Positions 26,810 through 63,183 of a stretch of 64,000 nt of DNA are shown piece by piece. The DNA comes from Pseudocercospora fijiensis CIRAD86. Taxonomy: Eukaryota > Ascomycota > Dothideomycetes > Mycosphaerellales > Mycosphaerellaceae. Made by a program: the position numbers and the translations under genes. Within the stretch, counting starts at the first letter, position 1. Every line of letters begins with the position of its first letter. Where the stretch lies: NCBI RefSeq assembly GCF_000340215.1, contig NW_006921545.1, positions 304,687-368,686 on the forward strand, written 5' to 3'. Below the pieces are notes generated by a model. That model made no database searches, was not told the DNA's origin, and was given only the letters and a program-made list of their open reading frames with translations.

Positions 26810-26817
26810 TATAGGTA
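26810..26817. repeat. 8-bp target duplication of copy B, left
   Basis: tataggta, identical to 36686-36693. Confidence 0.92.
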
Positions 26818-29937: not shown

Positions 29938-30333
29938 GAGAATTTCTCGTTAAAGTTTCTCTCTCGTAGGCTTGCTATCTGCCTCGTAGTATAGAGGATT
30001 AAAGTACTAATACTAAAGAATCTCCTTATAGTTAGGATACTAGGGCTCCTTAGGACCTTTATGTTTTAGGTCTAAATAGAGACGTATTATAAACGTTCTA
30101 TCGCCCTTTCGCTTACTACCCGCTAGGTCGCGATATACGAAGAAACTAATCTAAATATAGCTCGTCTCTATAATAGCCGGGTAAATATAGAGCGCTAGGT
30201 TTCTACTTCGTACCTTAGATTTAGGGACGGCGCGGAGATAAAATTAGAAATATAGCCGGTACCTATAGCCGGTAAAAGAATGCGAAAATAGGCCTCCTCC
30301 TAGGTTAATCTAACGACTAAGTACAATTTCTAA

Positions 30334-30974
30334 CTAATCCGCTATAAACCGACGCCGAATTTTAGCTAGAAGCTATATATCTTTATTTTAAAGAGTAACC
30401 CGCTTCGTATAGATAGTAAGGAGGTTTAAAAGCTTAAGCTCGGTTACGAGAAATGCCTCCGTAGCTTCCTAAAGAGCACTAATCGCCTTAGCCGTAAATC
30501 GTATACTAGACCGAAAATCTAATGTAATTTCTCGGACGAGTCGCTAGAAAGGAGTCTTAGGGATTAAAAGCTCGGTCCCTCTTTTATTTTAGAAAAGCCG
30601 GATCTAGCGAAGGGTAATAGTACCTAGTTTAAAGCGCCGCTTCTTTATCGTCGAGTCCTATCTTATTCCCTTTTTTTAATAGAAAGATAACTTTTCTTCG
30701 CGATAGTCTTCGTCCGCCTACTCTTTTTAGCCTTCTCCTATCTACCTAAAGCCTTCTTGTTTTTCGGTACTGTTTTCCGAGGAACCCCCTTCCTTTATAT
30801 ATACTACGGAGAGTCTTACTCTTCCGATATCTCGTTCTCGCTACGGTCTCCCTATACTTAGCTTACTTTACCTATACCCTTTAGCCTCTAAAGATATTTA
30901 TCTACGCGTTTAGGCGACGAGGGTATATCGGTAGGACCTAGAAAATTAATAAGTATATAATCGTAAGGAGACAT
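30334..30974 (-). pseudogene. Histone H3-like 2 gene of copy B, frameshifted and RIP-inactivated
   Basis: ATG is kept at 30974 (MSPYDYILI) and the terminal TAG at 30334-30336 matches copy C. The gene is 641 nt against 642 in C, because a poly-T tract near the tail/core junction is one base shorter. The H3 fold is otherwise collinear. In-frame TAG/TAA codons fall at Gln/Trp positions. Confidence 0.85.
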
Positions 30975-31285
30975 TAATACTTCTTACCTTCTAAAATAAA
31001 TAGTCTTCTATTAAACCGCCTTAGTAGGTTATCGTTAGATTCGAATAAAGGATAGTAGCTTAAGGAAGGGGAGGTAGCCGGCTTAGGAAGGCCCGAAGAG
31101 CCGAATCCTTAAGGTATATTTATCTTTAAGAATATAGGGAAAGGGAAGAAGGAGAGGAAGAGCGAATAGAGAATTAGAAATAGTCCGTAGGTAAGCGGGG
31201 TCGGTTGCTATAGCAACTAGTCTATTTAGGTTTTAGGAATTCGAAACACATTTCGGATATATACCGGCTATATACGCCGGCTATA

Positions 31286-33690: not shown

Positions 33691-36189
33691 ATTTCTACGG
33701 TTAATTAAAGTAGCCGGTAGCTATAGCCGGCATTTTAGAAGACGTTCCTCTTTCTAGAACGCTATATCTATATTAACCCTCCTCTTTCCTTAAGATTCCC
33801 GATACCGTTTAGAATAGAGATAGTTAGTAGGCGATAAGTTCCTATCCCCTAGTTTCGGGTATTTTAAGATTAAACCGTAGAAGTTATAGACAATTACTAG
33901 TTAACCTTTAAGTCGAGAAGTCGTATAACGGTATAATACCCCCTCTATAAAGAACTTCTAGAATATATCCGTTCGCTCCTTACTACTCTATCGTATCGAG
34001 TACTTCTAGAGTTTATACTTCTTTAAACGTAAGTATAAAGGGAACTATATCTTATAGACCTATTAATTAAACTACTCGGTATACTCGGGTTTCTAAAGAT
34101 ACGCCTAGCTCGCCTTTTCGAAGATATCCGGGTTAATACTCGATATTCTTATATCTCCGAACAACCTTCTACTTAGACTCCGTAAAGGTAAGAACTAGGT
34201 AGTAGTACCCTATAATATATTCCTACTACTAGGATTCGGAGAGGATAAATCTAGCCCTAATCGTCGTCTAGGACTCGATAGGCTCGAAGGTAAGTATACG
34301 ACCTCCTCTCGACGTTGTCGTAATCTCGCTCGTATACTAGACTGTTTCGACTGTCGTCTCGTTATTATCCTTCCTAGTATAGCGCCTAGTATATATACAA
34401 TATCGGTCGGTATGTTTTAAGGTTTCGTACGGTAAGGTAAGGACTTAGGAGTAGTAGATATATACTAGTAGCTATAGGGAAACACCCTTTCTTTTATAGT
34501 ATCGTATCGTTAGGAACAGCTAGGCAGTAAATAGCTAGCTACCTTTTTTTTGTTTCCTAGCTACCTAACTACTAGATTTTTTTTCCTAGCTACCCTAGCT
34601 AGCCTAACTACTAGAATTTCTTTCCTAGCTACCCTAACTACCTAAATTTTGCCTTCTATACGGCGGCTCTCTCCTACTAACGGAACCGAGCTACTATACC
34701 TAACGAATCTAAGCTCGTTTTTAGTCTTAATCTATCCTCTTTCGGTATAAGACACTCGATAAGCAAATGCTTAGGCCGAGTCTAACTATAAAACCTAAGA
34801 CTAACTAATAGCTCTATTAACTAATCCTAATCCTCGAACTCCTTCCGCTTCTTAGTAAAGACCTTAAAGAGCGCTCGAGCTTCTTCGGGTACCTACGGAG
34901 TAGTCGAGATAAAGCCGTATCGCTAAAATAGGTAATCCTTCGGAGGCTTATATAGAGATTGAGAGAATTCTAACGCTAATCTATCCTACTAGTAGCTTAG
35001 ATTCCGGATATAAGCCCTCTCTGCCTTAGTAAAGATTTTATATAGTAGTAGTACTCTACCTTAGAGAAACGCTTTCTATTTAACTATTAGTATCTGCCGG
35101 CTACGAACGCCGGCTATATATACCGAGTATAGAATAATTACCTATACCCCTTCCTCCTTTAGTAACACTTCTGCCGTCCCTAGATACCTAGCCCCGATCG
35201 TATTAATCGCAAGCTACTTTGCCTTTATAGACGTAAAGGCTTCGCTCTAATACTAATAAAGAAACTTCTACTCTATATCGAGGATATAAAGACGACTAGT
35301 CTCGATTCTAATCCTTACTAGCTTTTCGTAGTAGCTTTAACTATAATTTTCTAGATTGATAGGACTTATACCTTAGCCCTTTACTAGTATCTCGTCTCTT
35401 TAACTATACTCGATCTACTCCTAGCGCTTATCGTCTATAGCGTTAGGCCCTAAGACTATACCTATTACTAGATCGACGTATAGTATCTCCTCGCTTTTTT
35501 TAGTTCCTTTATTCGTAGTATTAAGCTCTATCGCGGTATCCTAAACTCTAGTATTATTGTTCTCGGCTATCTAAATATCTCCGTTACTATCGGTCGTATC
35601 GATAGAGGTAGCGGCTATAGGTCTAAATGCTATTAGTTAACGTATTAAAGAAAAATATGCCGGCTATAGCTGCCGGCTACGGCTACCGGCTATAGCTGCT
35701 AGCTACGGCCGCTAGCTAGATTAACTTACGCTACTAGAACTTTACGCTCGAAAACTAGCTATAATTCTTTCCTTCTCTTAGCCTTCTCTTAGGTTATCTT
35801 CTTATTCTAACCTTCACTTTTTTCTATAGGCGCTAGCTATTAATAGAATGCCTTATTCCGCGCCTTACTTCTCTTATTCTTAGCTCTTTTATCCTTATCT
35901 ATCTTCTCCTTTCTCTCGCGGTCTCGTACGGAATTCTTCTTCGTAGAGTACTCCTCTTTAGTCTTACGCTTTTTAGTTAGACGCTTAGGTAAAATAAACT
36001 CGCGGTCTTTAGTTCTATCTTCTCCTTAGCGCGCGGCGCGCTTCTCTCTTATTATTGTAAGGGAAAGGGGCGGGGGCGTAGCGTATAGTAGTTATTATCG
36101 GTATAGGTATAGAGGAAGAAGTTAAAAGTATAAGAATATCGCGAAGCCCTAATTATTGCCGCCTATATAACGTTATATAGGTAAGCTTT

Positions 36190-36480
36190 CGCAACTACGG
36201 CAACTATGCCCCGGTAATAGCAACTACGCCCTAGCAACGGTAACTACGCCCTAGCAACGGCAACTACGCCCTAGCAACGGTAATAGAGCGTAGTAAATAT
36301 AACCTAGTAACTATTATAGCCGGCAATCGTAGCCGGTAGTCGAATAAGAGTGTCCTTATAGCAAAACTACGCCCTAGTAACGGCAACTACGCCCTAGCAA
36401 CGGCAACTACGCCCTAGCAACGGCAACTACGCCCTAGCAACGGCAACTACGCCCTAGCAACGGCAAAAGAGCGTAGTAAA
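36190..36480. repeat. Right subterminal 19-20-bp repeat array of copy B
   Basis: The unit gccctagcaacggcaactac is repeated in two blocks about 70 bp apart, with more copies than in C. It lies some 200-500 bp inside the right terminus. Arrays in this place in hAT elements often bind the transposase, but that is inference here. Confidence 0.85.
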
Positions 36481-36685
36481 TGTAATAGAGTTACTATTAT
36501 AGCCGGTAATCGTAGCCGGCAGTCGAATAAGAGTATCCTTATAGTAAAACTAATACAGTCTCTAGTTTAAACTAGGAATCTATATAGTTCGAAAAAACCA
36601 AACCGGAACTAGGGAGCTAGTTCGCCGCTAAGAAACCAAACTATATACGTTTAGTAGTTCGGAAACCGAACTACTACGGGGTCTA

Positions 36686-36693: not shown

Positions 36694-37502
36694 AGGTATT
36701 AGAAAAGTATATAAAGAGTACGAGAAGAGTATCCTAGGATATAGGTCGTAAGTAAATTATAGTAGTACGCCTAGTTATTTATATAGTACGGTAATCTAAA
36801 CGATTAAGAGCCTATATTATCTCGTACTTTGCTTATAAGACCTCGACTCTACTAATATACTATTAATCTCCTGCCCGGTCGCCCTAGCTATAGAAGTAGC
36901 GGGGAGCGATAATCGTACGACGATTTCTCTTCTTCTTTAGTTATATCTACTTCTAGTTCTTAGCGTAGTTAAACTATAAATACTATCGAGTTTAGCCGGG
37001 ATATCTTAATTCTTCTTTAAGTTACCGGACTTAGTACGTATCTATAGCTATATAATAGCGCTACGTATTATAGAGAATCTCTCGTTAAAGTTTCTCTCTC
37101 GTAGGCTTACTATCTACCTCGTAGTATAGAGGATTAAAGTACTAATACTAAAGAATCTCCTTATAGTTAGAATACTAGGGCTCCTTAGGACCTTTGTATT
37201 TTAGATCTAAAAAGAGACGTATTATAAATCTTCTATCGCCCTTTCGCTTACTATCCGCTAAGCTAGGATATATAAAGAAACTAGTCTAAATATAGCCCGT
37301 CTCTATTATAACCGAGTAAATATAAGGCGCTAGGTTTCTACTTCGTACCTTACATTTAGGTACGGCGTAGAGATAAAATTAGAAGTATAGCCGGTACCTA
37401 TAGCCGGTACCTATAGCCGGTAAAAGGATACGAAAATAGGCCTACTCCTAGGTTAATCTAACGACTAAATACAAATTCTAGTTAATCCGCTATAAACCGA
37501 CG

Positions 37503-37699
37503 AAATTATATTTAATTTTCGGTCTAGTATACGATTTACGGCTAAGGCGATTAGTGCTCTTTAGGAAGCTACGGAGGCATTTCTCGTAACCGAGCTTAAG
37601 CTTTTAAACCTCCTTACTATCTATACGAAGCGGGTTACTCTTTAAAATAAAGATATATAGCTTCTAGCTAAAATTCGGCGTCGGTTTATAGCGGATTAG
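37503..37699 (+). pseudogene. Histone H3-like 2, 3' fragment (copy D)
   Basis: It begins inside the fold (FRSSIRFTAKAISAL) and runs to the shared terminal TAG at 37697-37699. The 5' two thirds of the gene are missing because of the copy D truncation. Confidence 0.75.
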
Positions 37700-38970
37700 T
37701 TAGAAATTATATTTAGTCGTTAGATTAACCTAGGAGGAGGCCTATTTTCGTATCCTTTTACCGGCTATAGGTACCGGCTATATTTCTAATTTTATCTCCG
37801 CGCCGTCCCTAAATCTAAGGTACGAAGTAGATACCTAGCGCTCTATATTTACCCGGCTATTATAGAGACGAGCTATATTTAGATTAGTTTCTTCGTATAT
37901 CGCGACCTAGCGGGTAGTAAGCGAAAGGGCGATAGAACATTTATAATACCTCTCTATTTAGACCTAAAATACAAAGGTCCTAAGGAGCCCTAGTACCCTA
38001 ACTATAAGGAGATTCTTTAGTATTAGTACTTTAATCCTCTATACTACGAGGTAGATAGTAAGCCTACGAGAGAGAAACTTTAACGAGAGATTCTCTATAA
38101 TACGTAGCGCTATTATATAGCGATAGATACGTACTAAGTCCGGCAACTCGAAGAAGAATTAAGATAGCGACCGAAGAGGAGATTAATAGTATATTAGTAG
38201 AGTCGAGGTCTTATAAGCGAAGTACGAGATAATATAGGCTCTTAGTCGTATAGAGTAACGTACTATATAAATAACTAGGCGTGCTACTCTTATTTACTTA
38301 CGACCTATATCCTAGGATACTCTTCTCGTACTTTTTATACTCTTTTCTAATACCTTACCTATAAGCGCTCCGCGACAACCGAGTAAATATAAGCTATAGG
38401 GTTTCCGCTCGGTACCTTAGCCTCCGAGATAGGGCGGAGTTAAATTTAGAGCGATAGCCGGCACTCGTAGCCGGTATATAGAGACGGTAGTAGGCCTTTT
38501 CCTACTAAATAACTAGCTTGTTTAGTATAGCCTACCTAATATTTCTTATATTTCCTAGCAATAGGCCTAGGTTACTTATAAGATTACTATAGCTAGTAAG
38601 GGAATTACTAAAGAATATCTATACTATAGTAGGATACTATTATTACGCCCGCTATTTATTAAAAGGAGGCTTTCGCCTATTACTATACCGGCTATATATA
38701 CCGGCTATATTTCAAGGTTTGCTATACCTGCCTTTTTAAGCCGTACCTGCCTTCTTTCCTTACTCTAACGTTACTATAATATAGGGTTACGCAACGCTTA
38801 CTCTATTGCCTAGCGATACCGCGATACTACCTCTCTCGCTATATTTAACCTTCGTATTAATACTTATACCTCTACGCTCTATATCTACTACCTCTATAAT
38901 ACCCTCGCTCCGCGCGCGCCTTCGTATACCTTTATAACGCACTTTTTTCCTTAATTCGACGACTTTTATA

Positions 38971-39622
38971 ATACCGAGTCTACTTAACTAAGTTACGACG
39001 CCTCGTAAGAAGAGACCTACTACTTCTACGGGTTATAATAATACTAGAAATAGTAGAACGAGTATAGTATATTAACGTAAGAAGGCTGCTACTACTACCG
39101 CTAGCTCTAGTACTAGAAAGGGCGTCGCGAGTAAGGCTCCGCGTAAGACGACGGCGGGTAAGGCTCTACGTAAGACGACGACTAGCGCTTCTACTACTAG
39201 TAGTAATAATCGTATAAAGCGTCGATAGCGCCTAGGAAGTAAGTCCTATTTACTACCGGTAGCGTAGCCGGCATTCTTACTATCTTTTTACTAATCCTTC
39301 TTTAGCCGTAGCCCTCCGTAAGATTCGGAAGTATTCGAAGGGTTCTAATCTCCTACTCCGTAAAGCTCCTTTCTAACGACTTGTTCGCGAAATTACCTAG
39401 TATTATATACTAGACCTTCGCTTCTAAGCCTCCGCGATAGGCGCCCTTTAAGAGGCTATAGAAGCCTACCTAGTTCGTATCTTCGAATATATATTTCTCT
39501 TCTACCTCTTTTCGAACTATACTAATACTATTTTAGCGGTTAACCTTATAGCTATCTATACGAACCGTATTACGATTATAGATAAGGACTTCAAAGCACT
39601 CGATTAGATTCTAAAAGGCTAG
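38971..39622 (+). pseudogene. Histone H3-like 1 gene of copy D, RIP-inactivated
   Basis: Same length (652 nt) and intron layout as copy B, with two tail repeat units. The start position reads ATACCG, in line with RIP of an original ATGCCG. The core shows the expected H3 landmarks interrupted by TAG/TAA. Confidence 0.8.
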
Positions 39623-39946
39623 AATGTCTATATTCTAGATAGTACTAGGTAGGATAGATATTCTAGTAGGAAGGATATTCGTAGTATTATCTATAAGCTT
39701 TTCTATATACGAAATAAGCCGCTATTATACGGCGCTGCATACCGCGCTCTAAATACTCTCTAAGTATATATATATAGTAAAGTATGCTTTATTAGCCGTA
39801 CGGAATAGAAGTTTTCGAAAATCCCGTTAGTACTAAGGAGTAAAAAGGCCGGCTACGCTACTAGCTACGCTACCGGCTACGCTACTAGCTACGCTACTAG
39901 GTTCTTTAAAGAACTAAAAGAAGATAGACATTCCGGTTAATTTGTA

Positions 39947-40493
39947 TTAGTTCGGATTTTTATAAAAAGAAAATAGGGAAAAATAAGGAAGGTTAAAGAG
40001 CCTAATGCTTATAGTTATAGGTATTATCCCTATTTTCTAGACTATATTATATACCTGCCTTCGTAACTCTACCTAATACTCCCTCTAAATATCCTTATAC
40101 TCTACCTACTAGAAATTTAACTAGGTACCTCGACCTATAGCTGCCTCTATATCTTTTACTATCTTCTATAGGTTAAATGACTCCTCTATAGTAGCCTCTA
40201 CCTCCTTATATAATACGAAGTTACTACCTGCCCTACCCTTAATATCTCCTAAATAACTAAGAGTTCTAAGGAACGAACTAGCATTCGGCCTTAGTATAGC
40301 GAGTAACTAGTAGAACGTTATATAGAGCTACCTTATAGCTCTTTTATATACTATACCGATACTAAGGGAGGAGCTATCCTAGTACTTAATATTAGAGAAT
40401 AGTTCAGTTAGAAAGTGTTAGAACTTCTTAAGGAGGGCTTCTAGGGAAATCGATAAGTTCTATCTAGATCTAGATAATAATATTCTACCGAGC
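39947..40493 (-). pseudogene. Left-end ORF of hAT copy D
   Basis: Minus-strand counterpart of 44618-45157, with the start codon position reading ATA and many RIP-type stops. Confidence 0.55.
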
Positions 40494-43400
40494 AGTTAGG
40501 GAATTAAATAGCGAGCGAAAGGATGAAATTTATACCTAATAAGTACAGTTTCTAAACTAAACTATAATAGCTTATATATATATATATATATACTTTTAAT
40601 TAGTTAGTACCCTTAGCTAATTGTCTATAGATTTAGGGTTATATAAGTACCTTCCTATAACTAAAAAATGCTAGCTACGCTACCGGCTATACTCTCGTAT
40701 CTTATAAAGGGCTTACTTCGAGTTACGTAGACATTCTTATACTTCTTAGAAACCGATAAATTCTATAGTTCGAACTAGCTAATCCTATAGTTGCTTAGTA
40801 AACTAACCTAAACTAAACTAGATCTTCGGCTTAGCAAACTGGACTAAACCAACCCGAACTGCTGCGGGGTCTACCTATTCTAGGCTCTAAAGGTAACTTT
40901 ATATACATTCGGGCGACGAGGGGATATCGCTAAGACCTAGAAAATTAATAAGCCTATAATCGTAAAGAGATATTTATACTTCTTACCTTCTAGATTTAAT
41001 AGTCTTCTATTAAACCGTCTTAGTAGGTCCTTATTGGATTCGTAATTAGGATAGTCGCTAAAGGAAGGAAAGGCGGCCGACTTAGTAAGGCCCGAAGAGC
41101 CGAATCCTTAAGGTATATTTATCTTTTATAATATAGGAAAAGGGAAGAAGGAGAGGAAGAGCGAATAGAGATTTAGAAATAGTTAGTAGAAAATCGGAGT
41201 GGGTTGCTATAGTAACTAGTCTATTTTAGAATTCAAAATGTATTAGGAATATATACTAGCTATATACGCCGGCTATATTATCTTCTATATAAACGCTTCG
41301 TCTCTTTAAAGCTACTCTAGGCCTATATACGCTTCTGCTTCTCGATCTAGTATCGCCTTCTATCTCCGCCTCCCTCCTCTTTGTTATCGCTAATAAGGGT
41401 TTCGCTTAGACTAAATTTTGTATTCTCTTCGCGCTATTAAGTTTCTTCGTTCTTAAGGTTTTCTAATTCCTCGATTAAGTCCTATAGTATAATCTTTAGT
41501 ATCCTACCTTAGCGACGCTAGTAGAGGAGGTAGTATCGGGATACTATAATAGATTCGAAGGTAGTAGGTAGGTATATTCGATTAAAGCGGCCCTAGTAAC
41601 GAGCGAAACTAAAAGACCTCTTATAGCCTATACCTACGCTTAGTATAGCGAGGACGTCCTAAGCGACTAACGCTATCGTTAAAAACTTAGGCTTTAACTG
41701 CTACTATATAGTAAGAATACCGTCTCCGAATTCGTTTAGAAGACCGGTAAGATCTAGAGATTATTAGCCCTCTTTCCGAGCCTATAAGTTTAGTACTTAC
41801 TTACGCGCCGATAGAGATTAAACTCTTCTTTATTTACTTTAGTAGTTGCTTCCTCTTCTACCTCTACTTTCTATCTACGAAATAGGTAGAATATATAATA
41901 TCGGAACCTTTTTAGCCTTCTTTTTCTTTATAGGAGCTATGTTTAGACTAGTTTTATTCCGACGCTTATAGAATATCTTTTATAGAATAGTCTAGTAATA
42001 CTTAGTCTATTCCTCGTCCTCCTTCTATTCCGGCTTCTACTAGTATATATCCTTTTCTACTAGGTTTAGTAAGTACGTAACGATATAGATATCTCTAAAC
42101 AACTAGAAGGTAATACTATAGTATTTATATAACTTAGTATAGGAGCTGTCTATAGCTTTCGCTATAGCTACTTTCTAGGGAACGCTCTTCTTAGCTAGCT
42201 TAGCTACGGTTTCGCTAGACTTATTAAAGAGCCAGTTATAGTACGTAAAGATAAGGTAGATTGTCGGTCCTTAGATTCTTCTAATCGTAGTAGTAACCTT
42301 CGCGTAATACTTACTAATATCTACGAGATACTCTACTTAGCGCTATTTAGCGGCGGTAAGCCCGAGCTACTTAATACCCTCGGGATTCTAATAGATCTCG
42401 AGAGCAGTATATAAAGGCGGTATATAAAGTATATCCCTTCGTAACTATATAGAAAGTCGAATCGAACTAGATCTTTACGTCTTAGGTAAATAAAGTAGGC
42501 GCTAAGGAGGCCGCTTTTACTATCGCTTATTCTATACGATATTCTAGGCATCGAATAATCGGTTTTAGGGCGCTCGATAAGGTTCTTTTAAATAGCTTCA
42601 AATCGGTTTTATCTCTATAAGCTTAAGTTCGTATATATTAGTAGACGATAAAGCGAGAGAAAAAGAGCTAGAACTATATTATATTACTACCTCTAGGTGC
42701 CGGCTATAGCTACCGGCTACGGATAAAAGTTATACCTTATATAAAACGAGAGCGAGGCTCTTTATCTTATCTCGTCTTATTACTATAACGAGTCTCTCGA
42801 CTTTCGACTTTACTTTATCCTTATCTAGGATCTTCTATTAGTCGTCGTTCGATAGTGTAATTTTAAGCATCTTAAAGAGGGCTAGGATCGCGATTTAAAC
42901 TAGTTAACCTTTAAGTCGAGAAGTCCTATTATAGTATAATATCCCCTCTATAAAGAAGCTCTAGAATATATCCGTTCGATCCTTACTACCCTATAGTACT
43001 TCTATAGTTTATACTCCTTTAAACGTAAGTATAAAGGAAACTATATCTTATAGACCTATTAATTAAACTACTCGGTATACTCGGGTTTCTAAAGATACGC
43101 CTAGCTAGCTTTTTCGAAGATATCTAGGTTACTACTCGATATTCTTATATCTCCGAATAATCTTCTCCTTAGACTCCGTAACGGTAAGGACTAGGTAGTA
43201 GCAACCTATAACGAAATCCTATAGTCCTACTACTCGGATTCGGAGAGGATAAATCTAGCCTTAATCGTAGTCTAGTACTCGATAGGCTCGAAGGCGAGTA
43301 TATAGCCTTATCTCGACGTTGTTATAATCTAGTTTGTATACTAGACTATTTCGACTATCGTCTTATCGCTATCCTTCCTAGTATAGCGCCTAGTATATAC

Positions 43401-44181: not shown

Positions 44182-44189
44182 ATCGTATC
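44182..44189. repeat. 8-bp target duplication of copy C, left
   Basis: atcgtatc, identical to 54124-54131. Confidence 0.93.
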
Positions 44190-44209
44190 TAGACCCCGCA
44201 GTGGTTCGG
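44190..44209 (+). repeat. Left terminal inverted repeat of copy C
   Basis: tagaccccgcagtggttcgg, the inverse of 54104-54123 with one mismatch. The first base was probably C before RIP, giving the CAG start common in hAT elements. Confidence 0.9.
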
Positions 44210-44617
44210 GTTGGTTTGGTTTAGTTTGCTAAGCCGAAACTCTGGTTTGGTTTGGGTTGGTTTGCTAAGCAACCACATAAGTAGCTGGTTCGAACTATAT
44301 AATTTATCGGTTTTTAAGAAGTGTACGAATGTATACGTAGCTTCAAGCAAGCCCTTTGTAAGACTCAGCAGTATAGCCGGCAGCGTGGCCGGCATTTTTA
44401 GTCCTCAGTACTCATAGAATTTTCGAATCCTACTTAGGCTACGTAGTTGTATGAAGGTACTTATATGACCTCAAATCTATAGACAATCAGCTAAGGGCAC
44501 TAACCAATCAAAAGCATATACATATATAAGGCATTATAGTTTAGTTCGGAAACTGCACTCCTTAGGTATGAATTTCATCCTTTCGTTTACGGTTCAATTC
44601 CCTAACTGCTTAGCAGA

Positions 44618-45157
44618 ATGTCTTTATCTAGATCTAGGTAGAACTTATCGATTTCCCTAGAAGTCCTCCTCCTTAAGAAGTTTATACACTTTCCTACCGA
44701 ACTATTCGACAATATTAAGTACTAGGATAGCTCCTCCCTCGGTATCGGCACAGTATATAAAAGAGCTATAAGGCAGCTCTATAGAACGTTCTACTAGTCA
44801 CTCGCTATACTAAGGCCGAATGCTAGTTCGTTCCTTAGAACTCTTAGTCATTTAGGAGATATAAAGGGTAGGGTAGGTAGTGACTTCGTATTGTATAAGG
44901 AGGTAGAGGCTGCTATAGAAGAGGCCTTCAACCTATAGAAGATAGTAAAAGATATAGAGGCAGCTGCAGGTCTAGGTACCTAGTTAAATTTCTAGTAGGT
45001 AGAGTATAAGGATATTCAGAGGGAGTATTAGGTAGAGTTGCGAAGGCAGGTGTATAATATGCTCTAGAAAATAGGGATAGTGCCTATAACTATAACTATT
45101 AGGCTCTTCAACCTTCCTTATTTTTCCCTGTTTTCTTTTTATAAAAATCTAAACTAA
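44618..45157 (+). pseudogene. Left-end ORF of copy C, conserved protein of unknown function
   Basis: A 179-codon frame from ATG at 44618 (MSLSRSR) to TAA at 45155-45157, broken only by TAG codons of RIP type (Trp/Gln positions). The protein looks helical and soluble (VYKRAIRQLYRTFY, DFVLYKEVEAAIEEAFNL, QREY-VELRRQVYNML). The plus-strand reading is more protein-like than the opposite strand, which is Leu/Tyr-rich. Copy B keeps the same frame and end. It is the only rightward gene in the element and converges on the H3-like 1 gene. No family is recognised. Confidence 0.6.
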
Positions 45158-45481
45158 TACAAATCAACCGGAATGTCTATCTTCTTTTAGTTCTTTGAAA
45201 AACCTAGCAGCGTGGCTAGCAGCGTGGCCGGCAGCGTAGTCGGCAGCGTAGCCGGCCTTTTTACTCCTTAGTACTAACGGGATTTTGGGAGACTTCTATT
45301 CCGTACGGCTAATAAAGCATACTATACTATATATATATGCTTAGAGAGTATTCAGAGCGCGGTATGCAGCGCCGTATAACAGCGGCTTATTTCGTATATA
45401 GAAAAGCTTGTAGACGATACTACGAACATCCTTCCTACTAGTATATCTATCCTATCTAGTACTATCTCGAATATAGACATT

Positions 45482-46181
45482 CTAGCCTTTTAGAATCTAA
45501 TCGAGTGCTTTGAAATCCTTGTCTATAATCGTTATACGCTTCGCGTAGATAGCTATAAGGTTGACCGCTAAAATAGTATTAGTATAGTCCGAAAAGAGGT
45601 AGAAGAGAAATATACATTCGAAGATACGAACTAGGTAGGCTTCTATAGCCTCTTAAAGGGCGCCTATCGCGGAGGCTTAGAAGCGAAGGTCTATTCTATA
45701 ATCCTAGGCAATTTCGCGAATAAGTCGTTAGAAAGGAGTTTTGCGGATTAGGAGCTTAGAACTCTTCTAATACTGCCGAATCTTACGGAGGGCTACGGCT
45801 AAAGAAGGATTAGTAAAAAGACAGTAAGAATGCCGGCTACGCTGCCGGCTACGCTACCGGCTACGCTGCCGGCTACAAATAGGACTTACTTCCTAGGCGC
45901 TATCGACGCTTCGCACGATTGCTACTAGTAGCAGAAGCGCTAGTTGTCGTCTTGCGTAGAGCCTTACCCGCCGTTGTCTTACGCGGAGCCTTGCCCGCCG
46001 TTGTCTTACGCGGAGCCTTGCTCGCGACGCCCTTTCTAGCACCGGAGCTAGCGGTAGCAGTAGCAGCTATCTTGCGTTGATGTACTATACTCGTTCTATT
46101 ATTTCCGATCTTATTACGACCCGTAGAAGCACTAGGTCCCTTCTTGCGAGGCGTCGTAACTTAGTTAAGTAGACTCGCTAT
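45482..46181 (-). pseudogene. Histone H3-like 1: H3 fold with repeated K9-K18-like tail motif (transposon cargo)
   Basis: Three exons on the minus strand: 46181-45890, 45798-45616 and 45567-45482. They join to 187 codons including the terminal TAG. The core matches histone H3 almost position by position: TVALRKIRQY, KLLIRKTPF, RLIREIA, DYRIDLRF, ASAIGAL, EAIEAYLVRIFE, NLIAIYAKRITI and DKDFKALD. It ends where H3 ends. The ~97-residue tail is basic and contains SKAPRKTTAGKAPRKTTAGK, three 27-bp units resembling H3 residues 8-18 (RKSTGGKAPRK). The two introns (91 and 48 bp) have GT-AG borders, and the second has a CTAAT branch-like site. The start reads ATA and was probably ATG before RIP. Eight in-frame TAG/TAA codons, mostly at conserved H3 Gln positions, show RIP inactivation. 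If intact it would be expected in chromatin. Codon composition cannot be judged after RIP. Confidence 0.9.
45799..45889 (-). other. Intron 1 of H3-like 1, filled with GTAGCCGGCA-type repeats
   Basis: Donor GTAAGT at 45889-45884 and acceptor CTTTAG ending at 45799. Most of the intron is four units of a ~11-bp repeat (gtagccggcagc), which differ in number between copies. Confidence 0.85.
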
Positions 46182-46489
46182 TATAAAAGTCGTCGAATTG
46201 AGGAAAAAAGTGCGTTACGAAGGTATACGAAGGCGCGCGCGGAGCGAGGGTATTACGGAGGTAGTAGATATAGAGCGTAGAGGTATAGGTATCGATGCGA
46301 AGGTTGAATATAGCGGTAGTGTCGCGGTATCGCTAGGTAATAGAGTAAGCTTCGCGCAAGCCTATATTATAGTAACGTTAGAGCAAGGAAAGAAGGCAGG
46401 CACGGCTAAAAAAGGCAGGCACGGCTAAAAAAGGCAGGTACGGCAGACTTTGAAATATAGCCGGCATATATAGCCGGTATAGTAATAGG

Positions 46490-47780
46490 CGAAAGCCTCC
46501 TTTTAATGAATAGCCGGCGTAATAATAGTATCCTACTATAGTATAGATATTCTTTAGTAATGCCTTTACTAGCTATAGTAATCTTATAAGTAACCTAGGC
46601 CTATTGCTAGTAAATATAAGAAATATTAGGTAGGCTATACTAAACAAGCTAGTCATTTAGCAGGAAAAGGCCTACTACCGTCTCTATATGCCGGCTACGA
46701 GTGCCGGCTACGAGTGCCGGCTATCGCTCTAAATTCAACTCCGCCCTATCTCGGAGGCTAAGGTACCGAGCGGAAACCCTACAGCTTATATTCACTCGGT
46801 TATCGCGGAGCGCTTACAGGTGAGGTATTAGAAAAGAGTATAAAAAGTACGAGAAGAGTATCCTAGGATATAGGTCGTAAGTGAATAAGAGTAGCACGCC
46901 TAGTTATTTATATAGTACGTTACTCTATACGACTAAGAGCCTATATTATCTCGTACTTCGCTTATAAGACCTCGACTCTACTAATATACTGTTATTCTCC
47001 TGCTCGGTCGCTGTCTTAAATCTTCTTCGAGTTGCCGGACTTAGTGCGCATCTATAGCTATGCAATAGCGCTACGTATTATAGAGAATCAACTCCGCCGT
47101 ATCTCGAAGGCTAAGGTACCGAGCGGAAATCCTATAGCTTATATTCACTCGGTTATCGCGGAGCGATTACAGGTAAGGTATTAGAAAAGAGTATAAAAAG
47201 TACGACAAGAGCATCCTAGGATATAGGTCGTAAGTGAATAAGAGTAGTACGCCTAGTTATTTATATAGTACGTTACTCTATACGACTAAGAGCCTATATT
47301 ATCTTGTGCTTCGCTTGTAAGACCTCGACTCTACTAGTATACTATCGATCTCCTCCTCGGTCGCTAATACGCTGTCTTAATTCTTCTTCGAGTTGCCGGA
47401 CTTAGTACGTATCTATAGCTATACAATAGCGCTACGTATTATAGAGAATTTCTCGTTGAAGTTTCTCTCTCGTAGGCTTGCTATCTGCCTCGTAATACAG
47501 AGGATCAAAGTGCTAATACTAAAGAATCTCCTTATAGTTAGGATACTAGGGCTCCTTAGGACCTTTGTGTTTTAGGTCTAAATAGAGACGTATTATAAAC
47601 GTTCTATCGCCCTTTCGCTTACTACCCGCTAGGTCGCGATATGCGAAGAAACTAATCTAAATGTAGCTCGTCTCTATAAGAGCCGGGTGAATATAGAGCG
47701 CTAGGTTTCTACTTCGTACCTTAGATTTAGGGACGGCGCGGAGATAAAATCAGAAATATAGCCGGTACCTATAGCCGGCA
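46490..47780 (-). pseudogene. Unassigned coding-like region between the two H3 genes of copy C
   Basis: One minus-strand frame reads as plausible protein from about 47740 to 47090 (GDRTFIIRLYLDLKHKGP, DPLYYEADSKPTREKLQREI, VRQLEEELRQR), with only RIP-type stops. Part of it is repeated with 46738-47090 by a 353-bp tandem duplication. GCCGGC-type repeats at both edges (near 47760 and 46460-46725) resemble those in the H3-like 1 intron, so introns are likely. I could not assign a family or define exons. It may be a third cargo gene or an untranslated part of a neighbour. Confidence 0.4.
46738..47443. repeat. 353-bp tandem duplication in copy C
   Basis: Units start at 46738 and 47091 with the sequence actccgcc and stay alike for about 350 bases. 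The same pair exists in copy B. Confidence 0.88.
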
Positions 47781-47839
47781 AAAGGATGCGAAAATAGGCC
47801 TCCTCCTAGGTTAATCTAACGACTAAATACAATTTCCAA

Positions 47840-48481
47840 CTAATCCGCTATAAACCGACGCCGAATTTTAGCTAGAAGCTATATATCTTTATTTTGAAGA
47901 GTAACCCGCTTCGTATAGATAGCAAGGAGGTTTGAAAGCTCAAGCTCGGTTACGAGAAATGCCTCCGTAGCTTCCTAAAGAGCACTAATCGCCTTAGCCG
48001 TAAATCGTATACTAGACCGAAAATCTAATGTAATTTCTCGGACGAGTCGCTAGAAGGGAGTCTTAGGGATTAAAAGCTCGGTCCCTCTTTTGTTTTAGAA
48101 AAGCCGGATCTAGCGAAGGGTAATAGTACCTAGTTTGAAGCGCCGCTTCTTTGTCGTCGAGTCCTGCCTTATTCCCTTTCTTTTAATAGAAAGATAACTT
48201 TTCTTCGCGATAGTCTTCGTCCGCCTACTCTTTTTAGCCTTCTCCTATCTACCTATAGCCTTCTTGTTTTTCGGTACTGTTTTCCGAGGAACCCCCTTCC
48301 TTCGTATATACTACGGAGAGCCTTGCTCTTCCGATATCTCGTTCTCGCTACGGTCTCCCTATGCTTAGCTTGCTTTACCCTTGCCCTTTAGCCTCTAAAG
48401 ATATTTATCTACGCGTTTAGGCGACGAGGGTATATCGGTAGGACCTAGAAAATTAATAAGTATATAATCGTAAGGAGACAT
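47840..48481 (-). pseudogene. Histone H3-like 2: diverged H3 fold with long basic tail (transposon cargo)
   Basis: Intronless, 642 nt on the minus strand, from a kept ATG at 48481-48479 (MSPYDYILINFLGPTD) to TAG at 47842-47840, giving 213 residues if RIP stops are read through. The last ~95 residues follow H3: LGTITLR, RGTELLIPKTPF, RLVREITLDFRSSIRF, AISAL, EATEAFLV, NLLAIYTKRVTL and NKDI. It ends 12 residues after NKDI, as H3 does. The ~115-residue tail is Lys/Arg-rich (KKSRRTKTIAKK, KKRRFK) and unlike canonical H3, a pattern also seen in centromeric H3 variants. Loop 1 has canonical H3 length, which argues against a simple CENP-A. About ten in-frame TAG/TAA codons are of RIP type. It lies just downstream of the transposase on the same strand. 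Confidence 0.88.
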
Positions 48482-48792
48482 TAATGCTTCTTACCTTCTA
48501 GAACAAATAGTCTTCCATCAAACCGCCTTATTAGGTTATCGTTAGATTCGAATAAAGGATAGTAGCTTAAGGAAGGGGAGGTAGCCGGCTTAGGAAGGCC
48601 CGAAGAGCCGAATCCTTAAGGCATATTTGTCTTTAAGAATATAGGGAAAGGGAAGAAGGAGAGGAAGAGCGAACAGAGAATTAGAAATAGTCCGTAGGTA
48701 AGCGGGGTCGGTTGCTATAGCAACTAGTCTGTTTGGGTCCTAGGAATTCGAAACACATTTCGGACATATGCCGGCTATATACGCCGGCTATA

Positions 48793-51170
48793 TTACCTTA
48801 TACGTAAACGCTTCGTCTCCTTAAAGCTGCTCTAAGCCTATATACGTTTCCGCTTCTCGACCCGGTATCGCCTTCTACCTCCGCCCTTCTCCTCTTCGTT
48901 ATCGCTAATTAGGGTTTCGCTTAGACTAAATTTCGCATTCTCTTCGCGCTCCTAGGTTTCTTCGATCTTAAGGTTTTCTAATTCCTCGATCAACTCCTTT
49001 AGTATAATCTTTAGTAACCTACCTTAGCGATTCTAGTAGAGGAGATAGTATCGGAATACTATAATAGATTCGAAGGTAGTAGGCGAGTATATTCGATTAA
49101 AGCGGCCCTAGTAACGAGCGATACTAAAAGACCTCTTATAGCCTATACCTACGCTCGGGATAGCGAGGACGTCCCGAGCGACCGACGCTATCGTTAGAAA
49201 CTTAGGCTCTAACCGCTACTATATAGCGAGAATATCGTCTCCGAATTCGTCTAGAAGACCGGTAAGATCTAGAGATTATTAGCCCTCTTTCCGAGCCTAC
49301 GGGTTTGTACTTACTCGCGCGCCGATAGAGATCGAACTCTTCTTTATTCACTTTAGTAGTTGCTTCCTCTTCTGCCTCTACTTCCTACCTACGAAATAGG
49401 TATAATGTCGGAGCCTTCTAAACCTTCTTTTTCTTTGTAGGAGCTGCATTTAGACTAGTTTCTTTCCGACGCTCGTAGAACATCTTTTCTAGAATAGTCT
49501 AGTAATGCTTCGGCTATACCTCGTCCGCCTTCTATTCCGGCCTCTGCTAGTATATATCCTTTTCTACCGGGTTGAGCAAGTACGCAACGCTATAGATATC
49601 CCCGAACGAGTTAAAGGTAGTACTGTAATATTTATGCAACTTAGCATAGGAGGTGTCTATAGCTTTCGTTATAGCTACTTTCTAGGGAACGCTCTTCCTA
49701 GCTAGCTTAGCTACGGTTTCCTCGAGCTCGTTAAAGAGCTAGTTATAGTACGTAAAGACAAGGTAGATCGTCGGTCCTCGGGTTCTTCCAATCGTAGTAG
49801 TAACCTTCGCGTAATGCTTACTAATATCGACGAGATACTCTACTTAGCGCTATTCGGCGGCGGTAAGGCCGAGCTACTTAATACCCTCGGAACTCTAATA
49901 GATCTCGAGAGCGGTACGTAAAGTACATCCCCTCGTAACTATATAGAAAGTCGAATCGAACCGGGTCTTAACGTCTTAGGTAAAACGGAGTAGGCGCTAA
50001 GGAGGCCGCTTTTGCTATCGCTTATTCTATGCGATATTCTAGGCATCGGTTTTAGGGCGCTCGATTAGGTTCTTTTAAATAGCCTCGAATCGGTTACATC
50101 TCTATAAGCTCGAGTTCGTATATATTGCTAGACGACGAAGCTAGAGAAAAAGAGTTAGAACTATACTAGGTTGCCGGCTACAGGTACCGGCTACGGACAA
50201 AAGTTATACCTTATACAAAACGAGAGCGAGGCTCTCTGCCTTATCCCGTCTCATTGCTGCAATGAGTTTCTCGACTTTCGACTTTACTTTATCCTTATCT
50301 AGGATCTTCTATTAGTCGTCGTTTAATAGTGCAATTTTAAGCGTCTTAAAGAGGGCTCGGATCGCGATTTAAACTATATAAGCGAGGTAGGGAAACTTCT
50401 ATAGGGATGCAACTAGTAACGACGTCGGCTCCGATTCAATAGGGCTAGGGCTATTAATAGGCTCCTCTTTATCGTTATTATCGTACGTATTGTCGTACGT
50501 ATCCGGAATCGTAGCGAGCTTAACATTCGGAAGATTAAGCTAGATTATAGACCTTGTAATCTCCTCTACGCACTCGACCCTATCGATACAATTAGTGATT
50601 TCAAAGACATATACGAGTGAATTGTATATACAACGCCTTATATAATGTTCGATTATTACTAGCGTTGTCCGTAGTAATCGAGATTAGTTTCGTTGTTACG
50701 CTAACCCTATCTATTGCCGCATAGACAAGCTTCGCTATATCCTTACTAGTATAGGAACCTAGAATTTTAGGGAATCCGATTATAAGTTCCTAGAGTTTCT
50801 AATCCGAATTGATAAAGTATAGTATAATCGAGAGGAAGGAGGCTCTTATAGTCCGGCTTAACTAGCTATCGATAGCAATAGCTACTCGGCGAGTATTACG
50901 GAGGATCTCCCGAATGTCGTCTAACGCAGCCTCTTTGTTCTTTTCGAATATAATACGCTAGGTTATCGCGCCGAGAAATAGGGGAGGGTAGTTTATAAGA
51001 TATAGGTATGTCTTCTATATAGACTCCCTTTCGTAGAAGTCTTCCGGAAGACCGTTTATAGCTAGCATTTCGTTTACTAGTTGCTTGAAGTCTTCGGGGG
51101 AGAAATCGGTAGCCTTCAATCCTAGAGCTTCCTTAAGCGTAGCCTATAATAATTAGCTAGATCTCTACGG
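48793..51170 (-). pseudogene. hAT superfamily transposase of copy C, RIP-inactivated
   Basis: Minus-strand coding region with hAT landmarks in order: AIAIDS followed by a TAG at the expected Trp (first catalytic Asp, ~50868-50870), ILYFINSD, the signature LISITTDNASNN (~50652-50672, second catalytic Asp), and the C-terminal dimerisation segment SVARDVLAIP to SFSIAR (49112-49200) followed by IVFRYYL. Stops inside are TAG or TAA and fit RIP. An intron is likely near 50165-50240, where GCCGGC repeats interrupt the frame (LALVLYK before it). Another lies at the 5' side, 51172-51240. The final TAA is at 48793-48795. The enzyme would excise and insert the element through DDE chemistry in the nucleus, creating 8-bp duplications, as seen for B and C. 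Confidence 0.9.
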
Positions 51171-51242
51171 TTAATTTAGGTAGCCGGAATCTGTAGCCGG
51201 TAGCTATAGCCGGTAGCTATAGCCGGCATTTTAGAAGACATA

Positions 51243-53520
51243 CCTCTTTCTAGAACGCTATATCTATATCAACTCTCCTCTCTCCTTAAGATTCCCGATA
51301 CCGTTTAGAATAGAGATAGTTCGTAGGCGATGAGTTCCTATCCCCTAGTTTCGGGTATTTCAAGATTGAACCGTAGAAGTTGCAGACAATTACTAGTTAA
51401 CCTTTGAGTCGAGAAGTCGTATAACGGTACAATACCCCCTCTATAAAGAACTTCTAGAATGTGTCCGTTCGCTCCTTACTCCCCTATCGTATCGAGTACT
51501 TCCGGAGTTTACACTCCTTCGAACGTAAGTATAAAGGGAACTATATCTTATAGACCTATTGATTGAACTGCTCTATATACTCGGGTTTCTAAAGATACGC
51601 CTAGCTAGCCTTTTCGAAGATTTCCGGGTTAATACTCGATATTCTTATATCTCCGAACAACCTTCTACTTAGACTCCGTAAAGGTAAGGACTAGGTAGTA
51701 GTACCCTATAATAAATTCCTACTACTAGGATTCGGAGAGGATGAATCTAGCCCTAATCGTAGTCTAGGACTCGATAGGCTCGAAGGTGAGTATACGACCT
51801 CCTCTCGACGTTGTCGCAATCTCGCTCGTATACTAGACTGTTTCGACTGTCGTCTCGTTGTTACCCTTCCTAGTATAGCGCCTAGTATATATACAATGTC
51901 GGTCGGCATGTTTTAAGGTTTCGTACGGTAAGGTAAGGACTTAGGAGTAGTAGATATGTACTAGTAGCTGTAGAGAAATACCCTTTCTTTTATAGCATCG
52001 TATCGTTAGGAATAGCTAGGCAGTAAATAGCTAGCCACCTTTTTTTTTTGTTTCCTAGCTACCTAACTACTAGATTTTTTTTCCTAGCTATCCTAGCTAG
52101 CCTAACTACTAGAATTTCTTTCCTAGCTACCCTAACTACCTGAATTTTGCCTTCTATACGGCGGCTCTCTCCCACTAACGGAACCGAGCTACTATACCTA
52201 ACGAATCCAAGCTCGTTTTTAGTCTCAATCTATCCTCTTTCGGTATAAGATACTCGATAAGCAAATGCTTAGGCCGAGTCTAACTACGAAACCTAAGACT
52301 AACTAATAGCTCTATTAACCAATCCTGATCCTCGAACTCCTTCCGCTTCTTAGTAAAGACCTTAAAGAGCGCTCGAGCTTCTTCGGGTACCTGCGGAGTA
52401 GTCGAGATAAAGCCGTATCGCTAAAATAGGTAATCCTTCGGAGGCTTATATAGAGATTCAGAGAATTCCAACGCCAACCTATCCTACTAGCAGCTTAGAT
52501 TCCGGATACAAGCCCTCTCTGCCTTAGTAAAGATTTTATATAGCAGTAGCACTCTGCCTTCGAGAAACGCTTTCTGTTTAACTGTTAGTATCTGCCGGCT
52601 ACGAACGCCGGCTATATATACCGAGTATAGAATAATTACCTGTACCCCTTCCTCCTATAGTAACACTTCTGCCGTCCCTAGATACCTAGCCCCGATCGTA
52701 TTAATCGCAAGCCACTTTGCCTTTATAGACGCAAAGGCTTCGCTCTAATACTAATAAAGAAACTTCTACTCTATATCGAGGATATAAAGACGACTAGTCT
52801 CGATTCCAATCCTTGCTAGCTTTTCGTAGTAGCTTTAACTATGATTTTCTAGATTGATAGGACTTATACCTTAGCCCTTTACTAGTATCTCGTCTCTTTG
52901 ACTGTGCTCGATCTACTCCTAGCGCTTATCGTCTATAGCGTTAGGCCCTAAGACTGCACCTGTTACTAGATCGACGTATAGTATCTCCTCGCTTTTTTCA
53001 GTTCCTTTATTCGTAGTATTAAGCTCTGTCGCGGCATCCTAAACTCTAGCATTGTTGTTCTCGGCTATCTAAACATCTCCGTTACTATCGGTCGTATCGA
53101 TAGAGGTAGCGACTATAGGTCTGAATGCTATTAGTTAACGTGTTAAAGAAAAATATGCCGGCTATAGCTGCCGGCTACGGCTGCCGGCTACAGCTGCTAG
53201 CTACGGCCGCTAGCTAGATTGACTTACGCTACTAGAACTTTACGCTCGAAAACTAGCCGTAATTCTTTCCTCCTCTTAGCCTTCTCTTAGGTTGTCTTCT
53301 TATTCTAACCTTCACTTTTTTCTATAGGCGCTAGCTATCGATAGAATGCCTCATTCCGCGCCTTTCTTCTCTTATCCTTAGCTCTTTTATCCTTATCTAT
53401 CTTGTCCTTTCTCTCGCGGTCTCGTACGGAATTCTTCTTCGTAGAGTACTCCTCTTTAGTCTTGCGCTTTTTAGTTAGACGCTTAGGCAAAACAAACTCG
53501 CGGTCTTCAGTTCTATCTTC
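51243..53520 (-). pseudogene. Coding region upstream of the transposase in copy C
   Basis: Successive minus-strand frames read as protein with RIP-type stops. A Lys/Arg-rich part lies at about 53510-53230 (RERKDKIDKDKRAKDKRRK). A mixed part is near 52560-52150 (RLALEFSESLYKPPKDY, ARALFKVFTKKRKEF). A segment near 51600-51300 includes RYTTSRLKG. GCCGGC repeats at about 52595-52620 and 53155-53200 may mark introns. It may be the transposase N-terminus, which in hAT proteins usually has a BED zinc finger that I could not identify, or a separate gene. Confidence 0.5.
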
Positions 53521-53689
53521 TATTTAGCGCGCGGCGCGCTTCTCTCTTACTATTATAAGGGAAAGGGGCGGGGGCGCAGCGTATAGTAGTTGTTGTCGGT
53601 ATAGGTATAAAGGAAGAAGTTGAAAGTGTAAGAATATCGCGAAGCCCTAATTGTTGCCGCCTACGTAACGTTATATAGGTAAGCTTTCG

Positions 53690-53920
53690 CAACTACGGCA
53701 ACTACGCCCCGGCAACAGTAACTACGCCCTAGCAACGGCAACTACGCCCTAGCAACGGCAACCACGCCCTAGTAACGGTAATAAAGCGTAGTAAATACAA
53801 CCTAGTAACTATTATAGCCGGCAATCGTAACCGGCAGTCGAATAAGAGTGTCCTTGTAGCAAAACCACGCCCTAGCAACGGCAACCACGCCCTAGCAACG
53901 GCAACTACGCCTAGTAAATG
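53690..53920. repeat. Right subterminal 19-20-bp repeat array of copy C
   Basis: Imperfect copies of gccctagcaacggcaactac in two blocks, separated by a direct repeat containing tagccggcaatcgtagccgg. It is equivalent to 36190-36480 in B, with fewer units. A trace exists at 55045-55125 in A. Confidence 0.85.
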
Positions 53921-54103
53921 TAACAGAGTTACTATTATAGCCGGCAATCGTAGCCGGCAGTCGAATAAGAGTGTCCTTGTAGTAAAACCAATACAGTCTC
54001 TAGTTCAAACCAGGAATCTATATAGTTCGAAAAAACCAAACCGGAACCAGGGAGCTGGTTCGCCGCTAAGAAACCAAACCATATACGTTTGGTGGTTCGG
54101 AAA

Positions 54104-54123
54104 CCGAACCACTACGGGGTCTA
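54104..54123 (-). repeat. Right terminal inverted repeat of copy C
   Basis: ccgaaccactacggggtcta, the inverse of the left end with one C/T difference. Confidence 0.9.
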
Positions 54124-54131
54124 ATCGTATC
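54124..54131. repeat. 8-bp target duplication of copy C, right
   Basis: atcgtatc, identical to 44182-44189. Copy A resumes after it. Confidence 0.93.
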
Positions 54132-55500
54132 CTACTTAGTATTCCTCTAATACCGATAAAGAAATTTCTACTCTATATTAAGAATATAAAGACGACTAGC
54201 CTTAGTTCTAATTCTTACTAGCTTTTTATAGTAGCTTTAATAATAATTTTCTAGATTTAAAGGACTTATATCTTAGCCCTTTCCTAGTACCTCGTCTCTT
54301 TAGCTACACTCGATCTACTCCTAGCGGTTATCGTCTATAGTATTAGACCCTAAGACTATACCTATTACTAGATCGATATATAGTATCTCCTTTTTTAGTC
54401 CCTTTATTCGTAGTATTAAGCACTTTCGCGGCATTCTAAACTATAGTATTATTGTTCTCGGTAATCTAAATATCTCCGTTATTATCGATCGTCTCGATAG
54501 AGATAGCGGCAATAGGGCTAAATAATATTAGCTAATGCTTTTAAGAAAGAAATACTAGCTATAGCTACTAGCTATATTACCTTACGCTTATAGAAAGTTA
54601 CGCTCGAAAACTAGACGTAATCCCTTCTTTCTCTAAGCCTTCTCTTAGATTGTCTTCCAGTTCTAACCTTTACTTTTTTCTATAGGCGCTAGCTATCGAT
54701 AGAAGGCTTTATTTTACGCCTTTCTTCTTTTATCCTTCGATTTTTTATTATTATATATTTTCTCCTTTCTCTCGCGGTCTCGTACGGAATTCTTCTTCGT
54801 ATAGTACTCCTCTTTAGTTTTACGCTTTTTTCTTAGATACTTAGGTAAAATAAAGTCGCGGTCTTTACTTATATCTTCTATTTAGCGCGTAGCGCGCTTC
54901 TCTCTTACTATTTTAAGAAGAGAAGAGGGGGGCGTAGCGTATAGTAGCTATTATAGGTATAGATATAGAGAAAGAAGAAGTTAAAAGGTATAAGAATCTC
55001 GCGAAGCCCTAATTGTTACCGCCTACGTAAACTTATATAGGTAAGCATTTATAACTACGGTAACTATACCCTAGTAACGGTAACTACGCTCCGGTAACGG
55101 CAACTACGACCTAGTAATAGGGATAGCTATTATTAAGGCAACCCCGAGCGGAGTAAATATAACGTAGTTACTATTATAGCTAGCAATAGTAGCCGGTAGT
55201 CGAATAGTAGACTTATATAAAAACTATTATAGTCTCTAGCTACTACGGCCTAGTAATAGTAGTAGCTATTATTAGGGCAACCGCGAGCGTTATAGATATA
55301 ACCTAGTTACAACTATAGCTAGTAATCGTCGCCGGTATTTAAATAAGAGTATACTTATAATAAAATTAATATAGTCTCTAGTTTTAACTAGGAATCTATA
55401 CAGTTTAAAAAAGTAAAACGGAACTAGGGAGCTAGCTTGCCGCTAAGAAACTAAACTATATACGTTTTATAGTTCGTAAACTAAACTACTACGAGGTCTA

Positions 55501-61615: not shown

Positions 61616-62555
61616 TGTGTTCCCCTGCCATTGAAAGGTACGTCGTCATTGTTACGTTGTGTTGCGGCATATGAAATCTTTTCTGCCAGCTCGTTGTGCG
61701 CCGTCTTTGATGAGGTTGCCGGTCTTCTCCTTCTGCTGCTGCGCTGTGCCTGTGACTACGACACTGCATTTCTTTCCTCCACATTCCATCCACGACTCAG
61801 GCTAGCGCTCTTTTAGCCCAGTTCTGTGATGAGGCACCTCTTCAGACAGTGGGTCGGTGGTTTTACCGTCTCGTCGGCGTGTTGCGCTCACGGCAGGCGC
61901 ATCGCGCATCCTTTCGAGTGTGCCAAATGTCCCACCTGATTCTTCCTAGCCATCTCGCTTGGGTATGCACCATGGACATTGTCATTCGAGTCGCGGGCGG
62001 GTCGGTGGGAGAAGGCGGCGCGTGCAAGCTACATGCATTGTTAGTAGAGACACACAATCCCATACCGATTCCTCACATTTTGCTTCCTTGGATGGGTAGT
62101 CGTAAGGCCAGTCGACAGTGTTTCCGCCTTTCCGCTTGCTCGAGATGCTGGATGCGCGGCGCTTGGTGCGCTGGACTCTGGCGGATCCGGACTCGTGTCA
62201 CGATCGGCTTCCACAGTGGCGGAATGTTCAGAGGAGACCAAGCAGGAAAGGTGGTGGGAATTGGATGGTATGGGAGGCTTTTCCGGAACTTCCGGTTTTC
62301 GCCATTACCAGGGCATAGTTGGAGCAGAAGCTGTATTTGATCTTTGTTATCCTGCCAATGCCCAACTTGTGGACGTCGGCTGGGCTCGATGCGTCATTGA
62401 TCCTCGAGGGTTGAAGCCAGACCTCGCAGATCCGAAGAGACAGACTGGATTCCTGACAAGCTGTCACTGTTACAAGTCTACGGAGGATGCGCATTGCAAA
62501 CGAAGGGGTTGTGGAATTGGCGACGATGCGGCCTCTTACCAAAGCGGGGCACCTC

Positions 62556-62802
62556 CGACGCTGTGAAAAAGCAGCCTCTCGGCAAAGCGCGGCAACTCTG
62601 ACGCCGCGAAAAAGCAGCCTCTTGGCAAACCGGGGCAGCTGACGCCGCGAAAAAGCAGCCTCTCGGCAAAGCGCGGCAACTCTGACGCCGCGAAAAAGCA
62701 GCCTCTTGGCAAACCGGGGCAACTCCGACGCCGCGAAAAAGCAGCCTCTTGGCAAACCGCGGCAGCTCTGACGCCGCGAAAACGCAGCCTCTTGGCAAAA
62801 AT
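62556..62802. repeat. ~43-bp tandem repeat, about six copies
   Basis: Units begin cgccgcgaaaaagcagcctc and continue with ttggcaaaccgcggcaactc, varying between 41 and 43 bp. A degenerate further copy lies upstream near 62530. The core gcgaaaaagcagcct also occurs at 3103-3120 in the first island. Confidence 0.9.
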
Positions 62803-63183
62803 GTTTATCCTTTGGCTTTACCTTCTCGACCGCCCAGGAGACAGACCGCGCGTTCGACCTCCAAGCAAACAGTACAAAGCCAACACCCAGCAGGCAGCGC
62901 GAAGCCAAGACCAGCGTGAAGCGCGAAGCTGCTATCGTAATGGCTACGAAACACGATTGATTACAGCTGACCATCATCGCTTCCCACCCAAGCATCGCTT
63001 CTCCCTGCTGCTGCGACTCACATCCGCGCCGAGCGAATCGATATGCGCATCTCAAAACACCGTCCAGATGGACGCCACTTCAATGTCGGCAGTGTTAGGC
63101 TCGTATGCGAGGAGGCGGAAAAGGAGGACAACCAACTGAAGAAGCAAGGGGAACGGGAACGGAGGCATTGGTGATAATGGGTG

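Follow-up and report, generated by a model that had tools for sequence, protein, structure and literature searches.

The window analyzed here, 64,000 nucleotides of the Pseudocercospora fijiensis CIRAD86 genome (contig NW_006921545.1), holds at positions 44190–54123 a mutated, dead copy of a fungal transposon carrying two histone H3-like genes. This 9,934-bp element (copy C, no strand assigned) is defined by its ends and its target site duplication (TSD). The left terminal inverted repeat (TIR), TAGACCCCGCAGTGGTTCGG, occupies 20 bp at 44190–44209 on the plus strand, and its inverse occupies 54104–54123 on the minus strand with one C/T difference; 19 of 20 bases match, so the repeats fall just short of the "perfect" pair described in a first-pass annotation made from the sequence alone. 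The 8-bp target duplication described there is present, with identical copies of ATCGTATC on both flanks (44182–44189 and 54124–54131, unstranded).

Both H3-like genes lie on the minus strand and encode long tails. The intronless H3b (47840–48481, stop included), read with X at stops in frame 48481–47840, matched the Pfam profile PF00125 with an E value of 1.2e-23 (84.1 bits, cut-off 26.4), and the core frame of H3a (gene at 45482–46181, frame 45826–45467), read in the same way, matched with an E value of 3.7e-18. A sequence search of the PDB agreed: all 60 among the matches listed for each of H3a and H3b were named histone H3. Together, these results rule out chance or a frame artefact as the source of the similarity and uphold the earlier assignment of both genes to H3. 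The coordinates given there are also right, with H3a predicted to be spliced and H3b unspliced. Leaving stops out, the two cores keep 54/84 and 49/87 host H3 residues; both cores carry Tyr in place of His113, and loop 1 is as short as that of host H3 in an alignment that did not include host CENP-A. The long tails of copy C possess neither ARTK nor ARKS, with a single ARKG in H3a. The H3a tail exon alone gave no match against Pfam, and it contains repeated GKAPRK-like words. Within this tail (45888–46181), a 27-nt unit reading GKAPRKTTA occurs three times in copy C, twice in copies B, D, and L010, and once in most of the L037–L048 copies.

The gene model of H3a comprises three exons (46181–45890, 45798–45616, and 45567–45485) and a stop codon (45484–45482), the first codon being ATA in copy C. 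Predicted intron 1 (45799–45889, minus strand, 91 nt) runs from GTAAGT to TTACTAATCCTTCTTTAG in phase 1 of the Thr45 codon, and its junction (GGA A, intron, CC GTA GCC) yields L-G-T-V-A-L-R as in H3. Among 21 aligned copies, GT is present in 21 and AG in 20. The host H3 intron is likewise in phase 1, in Gly44, 3 nt (one codon) away. Predicted intron 2 (45568–45615, minus strand, 48 nt) separates FE from NL; its donor reads GTATAT or GTATGT, and it ends in ATACTAATACTATTTTAG. The 48-nt length and terminal AG are found in 21/21 copies, while the donor G is present in 2/21 and reads as A in the other 19, the change made at TG by repeat-induced point mutation (RIP). Excision of the 48 nt gives FE-SV-NLIAI, which aligns without gaps to FE-DT-NLCAI of the host. 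Each of the two predicted introns has splice ends of the GT-AG type and branch motifs; they are well supported by sequence and apparently new, as they are not reported in the available portion of the paper that described such elements in this species (PMC6710886).

Further coding sequence in copy C includes a probable transposase at 49040–51738 (minus strand), for which exons in several frames give a partial model. Traces of the hAT dimerization domain PF05699 were obtained in three of four copies tested, at 16.4, 16.2, and 18.4 bits and hence below the cut-off of 21.4, with no trace in the fourth, L010; DUF659 gave no match in the element frames scanned with Pfam. When the raw transposase frame, introns left in, was used as the query of a search for relatives, 0 of 7,993 were scored. 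An additional open frame at 52160–53140 (minus strand) has no Pfam match, and a plus-strand frame at 44560–45130, near the left end, looks conserved. Short GCCGGC repeats are clustered across 44370–53975 (26 sites in the element; for example, 45195–45265, 45799–45889, and 50160–50190). They fall within H3a intron 1, within what appears to be an intron of the transposase around 50160, and in intergenic sequence of either strand. These clusters look like introner-like or repeat-seeded introns.

To place copy C in its genome, the PF00125 profile was searched against the whole assembly (73.94 Mb, 30 contigs), giving 772 H3-fold candidates; 150 received scores. Among these 150, the two stop-free places are host H3 (contig 6) and host CENP-A (contig 5), and no intact family member was seen; the scored list is not exhaustive, as host H2A, H2B, and H4 are not obvious in it. 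The window itself contains four H3a and three H3b matches, copy C included. Twenty further 10-kb regions were placed on H3 hits of the same list and chosen by H3b; all 20 contain both H3a and H3b (the latter by construction), and 17 have both ends with at most three substitutions, 16 of these 17 with an identical 8-bp TSD. The claim that the H3-like genes recur in other copies, and travel with the ends of a hAT-like element, is thus confirmed by ends, TSD, and recurrence alike, and the 8-bp TSD and short 20-bp TIRs are those of the hAT superfamily. Other full or partial family copies in the window lie at 23576–26817, 26818–36685, 37497–40873 (inverted), and 54145–55500. The window copies are nested in one RIP-affected block, and some are only 76–87% identical to copy C in the H3a part.

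The element carries a RIP pattern. Its TpA/ApT ratio of 1.77 compares with 0.44 and 0.52 for two GC-rich stretches elsewhere in the window, and its (CpA+TpG)/(ApC+GpT) ratio of 0.43 with 1.47 and 1.38. With the more distant L010 set aside, 19 fetched regions remain; 18 of them show between 1 and 16 transversions and between 266 and 330 transitions relative to copy C, and the last, L018, is without the right part of the element and was left out of the comparison. Stops in the cores fall at host H3 glutamines in 9/11 cases (5/6 and 4/5 per core, p 2.8e-6 and 5.6e-5), as RIP of once-open genes would predict through CAG/CAA to TAG/TAA. Length changes were also informative. In H3b, read by eye, indels common to several copies measure 3, 6, and 21 nt, and single-copy losses measure 12 nt in L035 and one base each in B and L032. 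In H3a, 18 copies differ from copy C in tail exon length, two of them out of frame, and 18 differ in intron 1, nine of them not by multiples of 3 (2/18 vs 9/18, p 0.027, copies not being independent); L028, with an alignment cut at the 5′ end, was left out of these counts. Among 20 copies of the H3a core exons, four differ in length, and two of these are out of frame. The in-frame shared indels and the pattern of tail lengths suggest that both H3s still had open frames at the time the subfamilies arose.

The first-pass annotation knew of no described DNA transposon with histone cargo, a claim of novelty that is overturned by two earlier studies (PMC3538342, 2013; PMC6710886, 2019). The latter described a hAT family in P. 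fijiensis, with 784 H3-like sequences in 471 elements of 9.5–9.9 kb at full length, bounded by a 20-bp TIR and an 8-bp TSD. Each element carries one or two H3s that differ by a 16-residue insertion, and the family was found to be inactivated by RIP with a CpA to TpA bias, the original H3 remaining intact on scaffold 6 (PMC6710886) of a 74-Mb genome (PMC13041039). Copy C shares the length, TIR, TSD, and RIP, the two H3s with a 16-residue (48-nt) difference, and an original H3 on the sixth contig or scaffold, and very probably belongs to this family, the match being one of described features rather than of consensus sequence. The 48-nt intron 2 of H3a very probably accounts for the 16-residue insertion of that paper (48/3 = 16). 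A difference lies in how the genes are read: in PMC6710886 the H3 is taken as intronless, a captured transcript or retrocopy with an insertion, whereas here H3a has two predicted introns and H3b has none.

The 2013 study reported a hAT of Pyrenophora tritici-repentis that likewise carries an H3-like gene (H3L) between its ends, and raised altered chromatin as a question (PMC3538342). Unlike the P. fijiensis elements, those of Pyrenophora are 5.6 and 2.3 kb long and carry a single H3L, with most copies open and ESTs reported; according to PMC6710886, the two are not similar in sequence. Another parallel is offered by fungal DNA transposons encoding TET/JBP enzymes (PMC12730594), hAT elements among them, in which a chromatin or DNA-modification gene is thought to counter silencing; the cargo there differs in being an enzyme rather than a histone, and it is spread over many transposon lineages.

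We assign a probability of about 0.85 to the reading that copy C is a dead member of the published P. fijiensis H3-hAT family, formed by H3 capture, spread, and subsequent RIP. A hAT-like element would have taken up host histone H3 sequence, H3a with its introns, the first lying one codon from the host H3 intron, and the two genes would have spread by transposition between the element ends until RIP, by turning C into T at CpA, introduced the stops that the copies now carry. The element being already published, the additions made here are the H3a introns and a record of transversions. Because RIP makes only transitions, transversions were counted as a cleaner record of the history before RIP, which renders the question of whether the histones were passengers or tools testable.

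Between copy C and L010, H3a has 49/446 amino-acid-changing and 7/76 fourfold transversions (p 0.84), with 1/138 in its introns. The corresponding counts are 31/529 and 4/80 for H3b, 76/2075 and 20/295 for the transposase segments, whose changing sites have a lower rate than their fourfold sites, and 48/784 and 5/98 for frame 52160–53140. H3a thus exceeds the transposase threefold in amino-acid-changing transversions (p 4.8e-9), the fourfold rates of the two being similar (p 0.46); this fits either relaxed constraint or rapid adaptive change. On the internal branches of a 21-copy tree, H3a changing sites (72/403) do not differ significantly from fourfold sites (7/66, p 0.25) and exceed introns plus upstream sequence (7/168, p 1.8e-5); the tail contributes 29/178 vs 0/35 (p 0.01) and the core 43/225 vs 7/31 (p 0.66). 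Terminal branches gave no excess (68/403 changing vs 15/66 fourfold). Permutation over all branches returned p 0.007 with fourfold and intron sites combined as the reference and p 0.49 with fourfold sites alone. Transversion counts, tree, and permutation found no strong purifying selection on the H3s. The changing-to-fourfold ratio appears to be about 1 in both, and introns alone suggest more; as frame 52160–53140 has the same ratio, the pattern is not special to histones. Relaxed constraint explains these rates no less well than positive selection does.

These rates count against capture and spread of working histone genes insofar as a functionless gene would give the same likeness of changing and fourfold sites, in H3a as in frame 52160–53140. 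Also on that side are the PF05699 scores below the Pfam cut-off and the out-of-frame changes in single copies (2/18 tail exons, 2/20 core exons, and H3b of B and L032). The alternative, close to the published reading and given roughly even odds here, is that the element picked up a housekeeping gene by accident, amplified it along with itself, and never gained anything from it. The equality of changing and fourfold rates in H3a and H3b, the terminal branches without excess, and a transposase that alone looks constrained are consistent with a pure passenger. Arguing against it are frames kept open between subfamilies, with their shared H3b indels; tail exons out of frame less often than intron 1, in copies that are not independent; splice motifs of H3a that persist across copies; and the excess on the internal branches of the tail.

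It is possible, though we doubt it, that the element instead used variant H3s against silencing and that these evolved fast against the host. The threefold excess of H3a over the transposase, the rate far above that of its own introns, the internal-branch excess over introns and upstream sequence, the copy C tails devoid of ARTK and ARKS, and the parallel with transposon-borne TET/JBP enzymes (PMC12730594) point in this direction. They are countered by the lack of a significant overall excess over fourfold sites, both on internal branches and by permutation, and by the possibility that the introns themselves are constrained. On balance, a passenger is slightly likelier than a role in silencing escape. 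Tentatively, element H3s without the usual ARTK and ARKS contexts might have entered host nucleosomes as variants and helped the element to escape silencing. A fuller version, which we regard as unlikely, would make the H3s element-owned, spliced variant genes with the tail changing fastest, serving against silencing until RIP, with hATs in this fungal class having taken up H3 at least twice because such nucleosomes help. Had the H3s served as tools, they would join the transposon-borne TET/JBP enzymes as chromatin cargo in fungi.

That the two stretches of H3a are coding insertions in a retrocopy, as published (PMC6710886), is very improbable. In its favor, H3b is intronless, and in copy C the 48-nt stretch can be read in frame without meeting a stop. 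Against it, each stretch has branch motifs and splice ends of the GT-AG type, the 91-nt length is not divisible by 3, and the first stretch lies one codon from the host intron. Under the preferred reading, with introns in H3a, at least this gene did not enter the element in the form of a spliced transcript, so that the published retrocopy inference fails for H3a and could hold for H3b only. The histone was accordingly not acquired solely as processed RNA.

Searches of public data for relatives returned 105 proteins of 191 candidates for H3b and, for H3a, five candidates with none significant. The best H3b match, P0001 (46% over 70%), is an intact protein of 164 aa on a 1,189-bp contig; like H3b, it has an insertion of two residues and ends in RRRF. 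P0009, at first sight similar to H3a, was rejected as a relative, being closer to host H3 (56/90) than to H3a (46/84). Elsewhere in the window, the GC-rich part contains an intact 864-aa frame (3757–6351), which looks like a Ulp1-type cysteine protease, and a repeat spaced at about 43 bp lies in a GC-rich stretch at 62477–62810.
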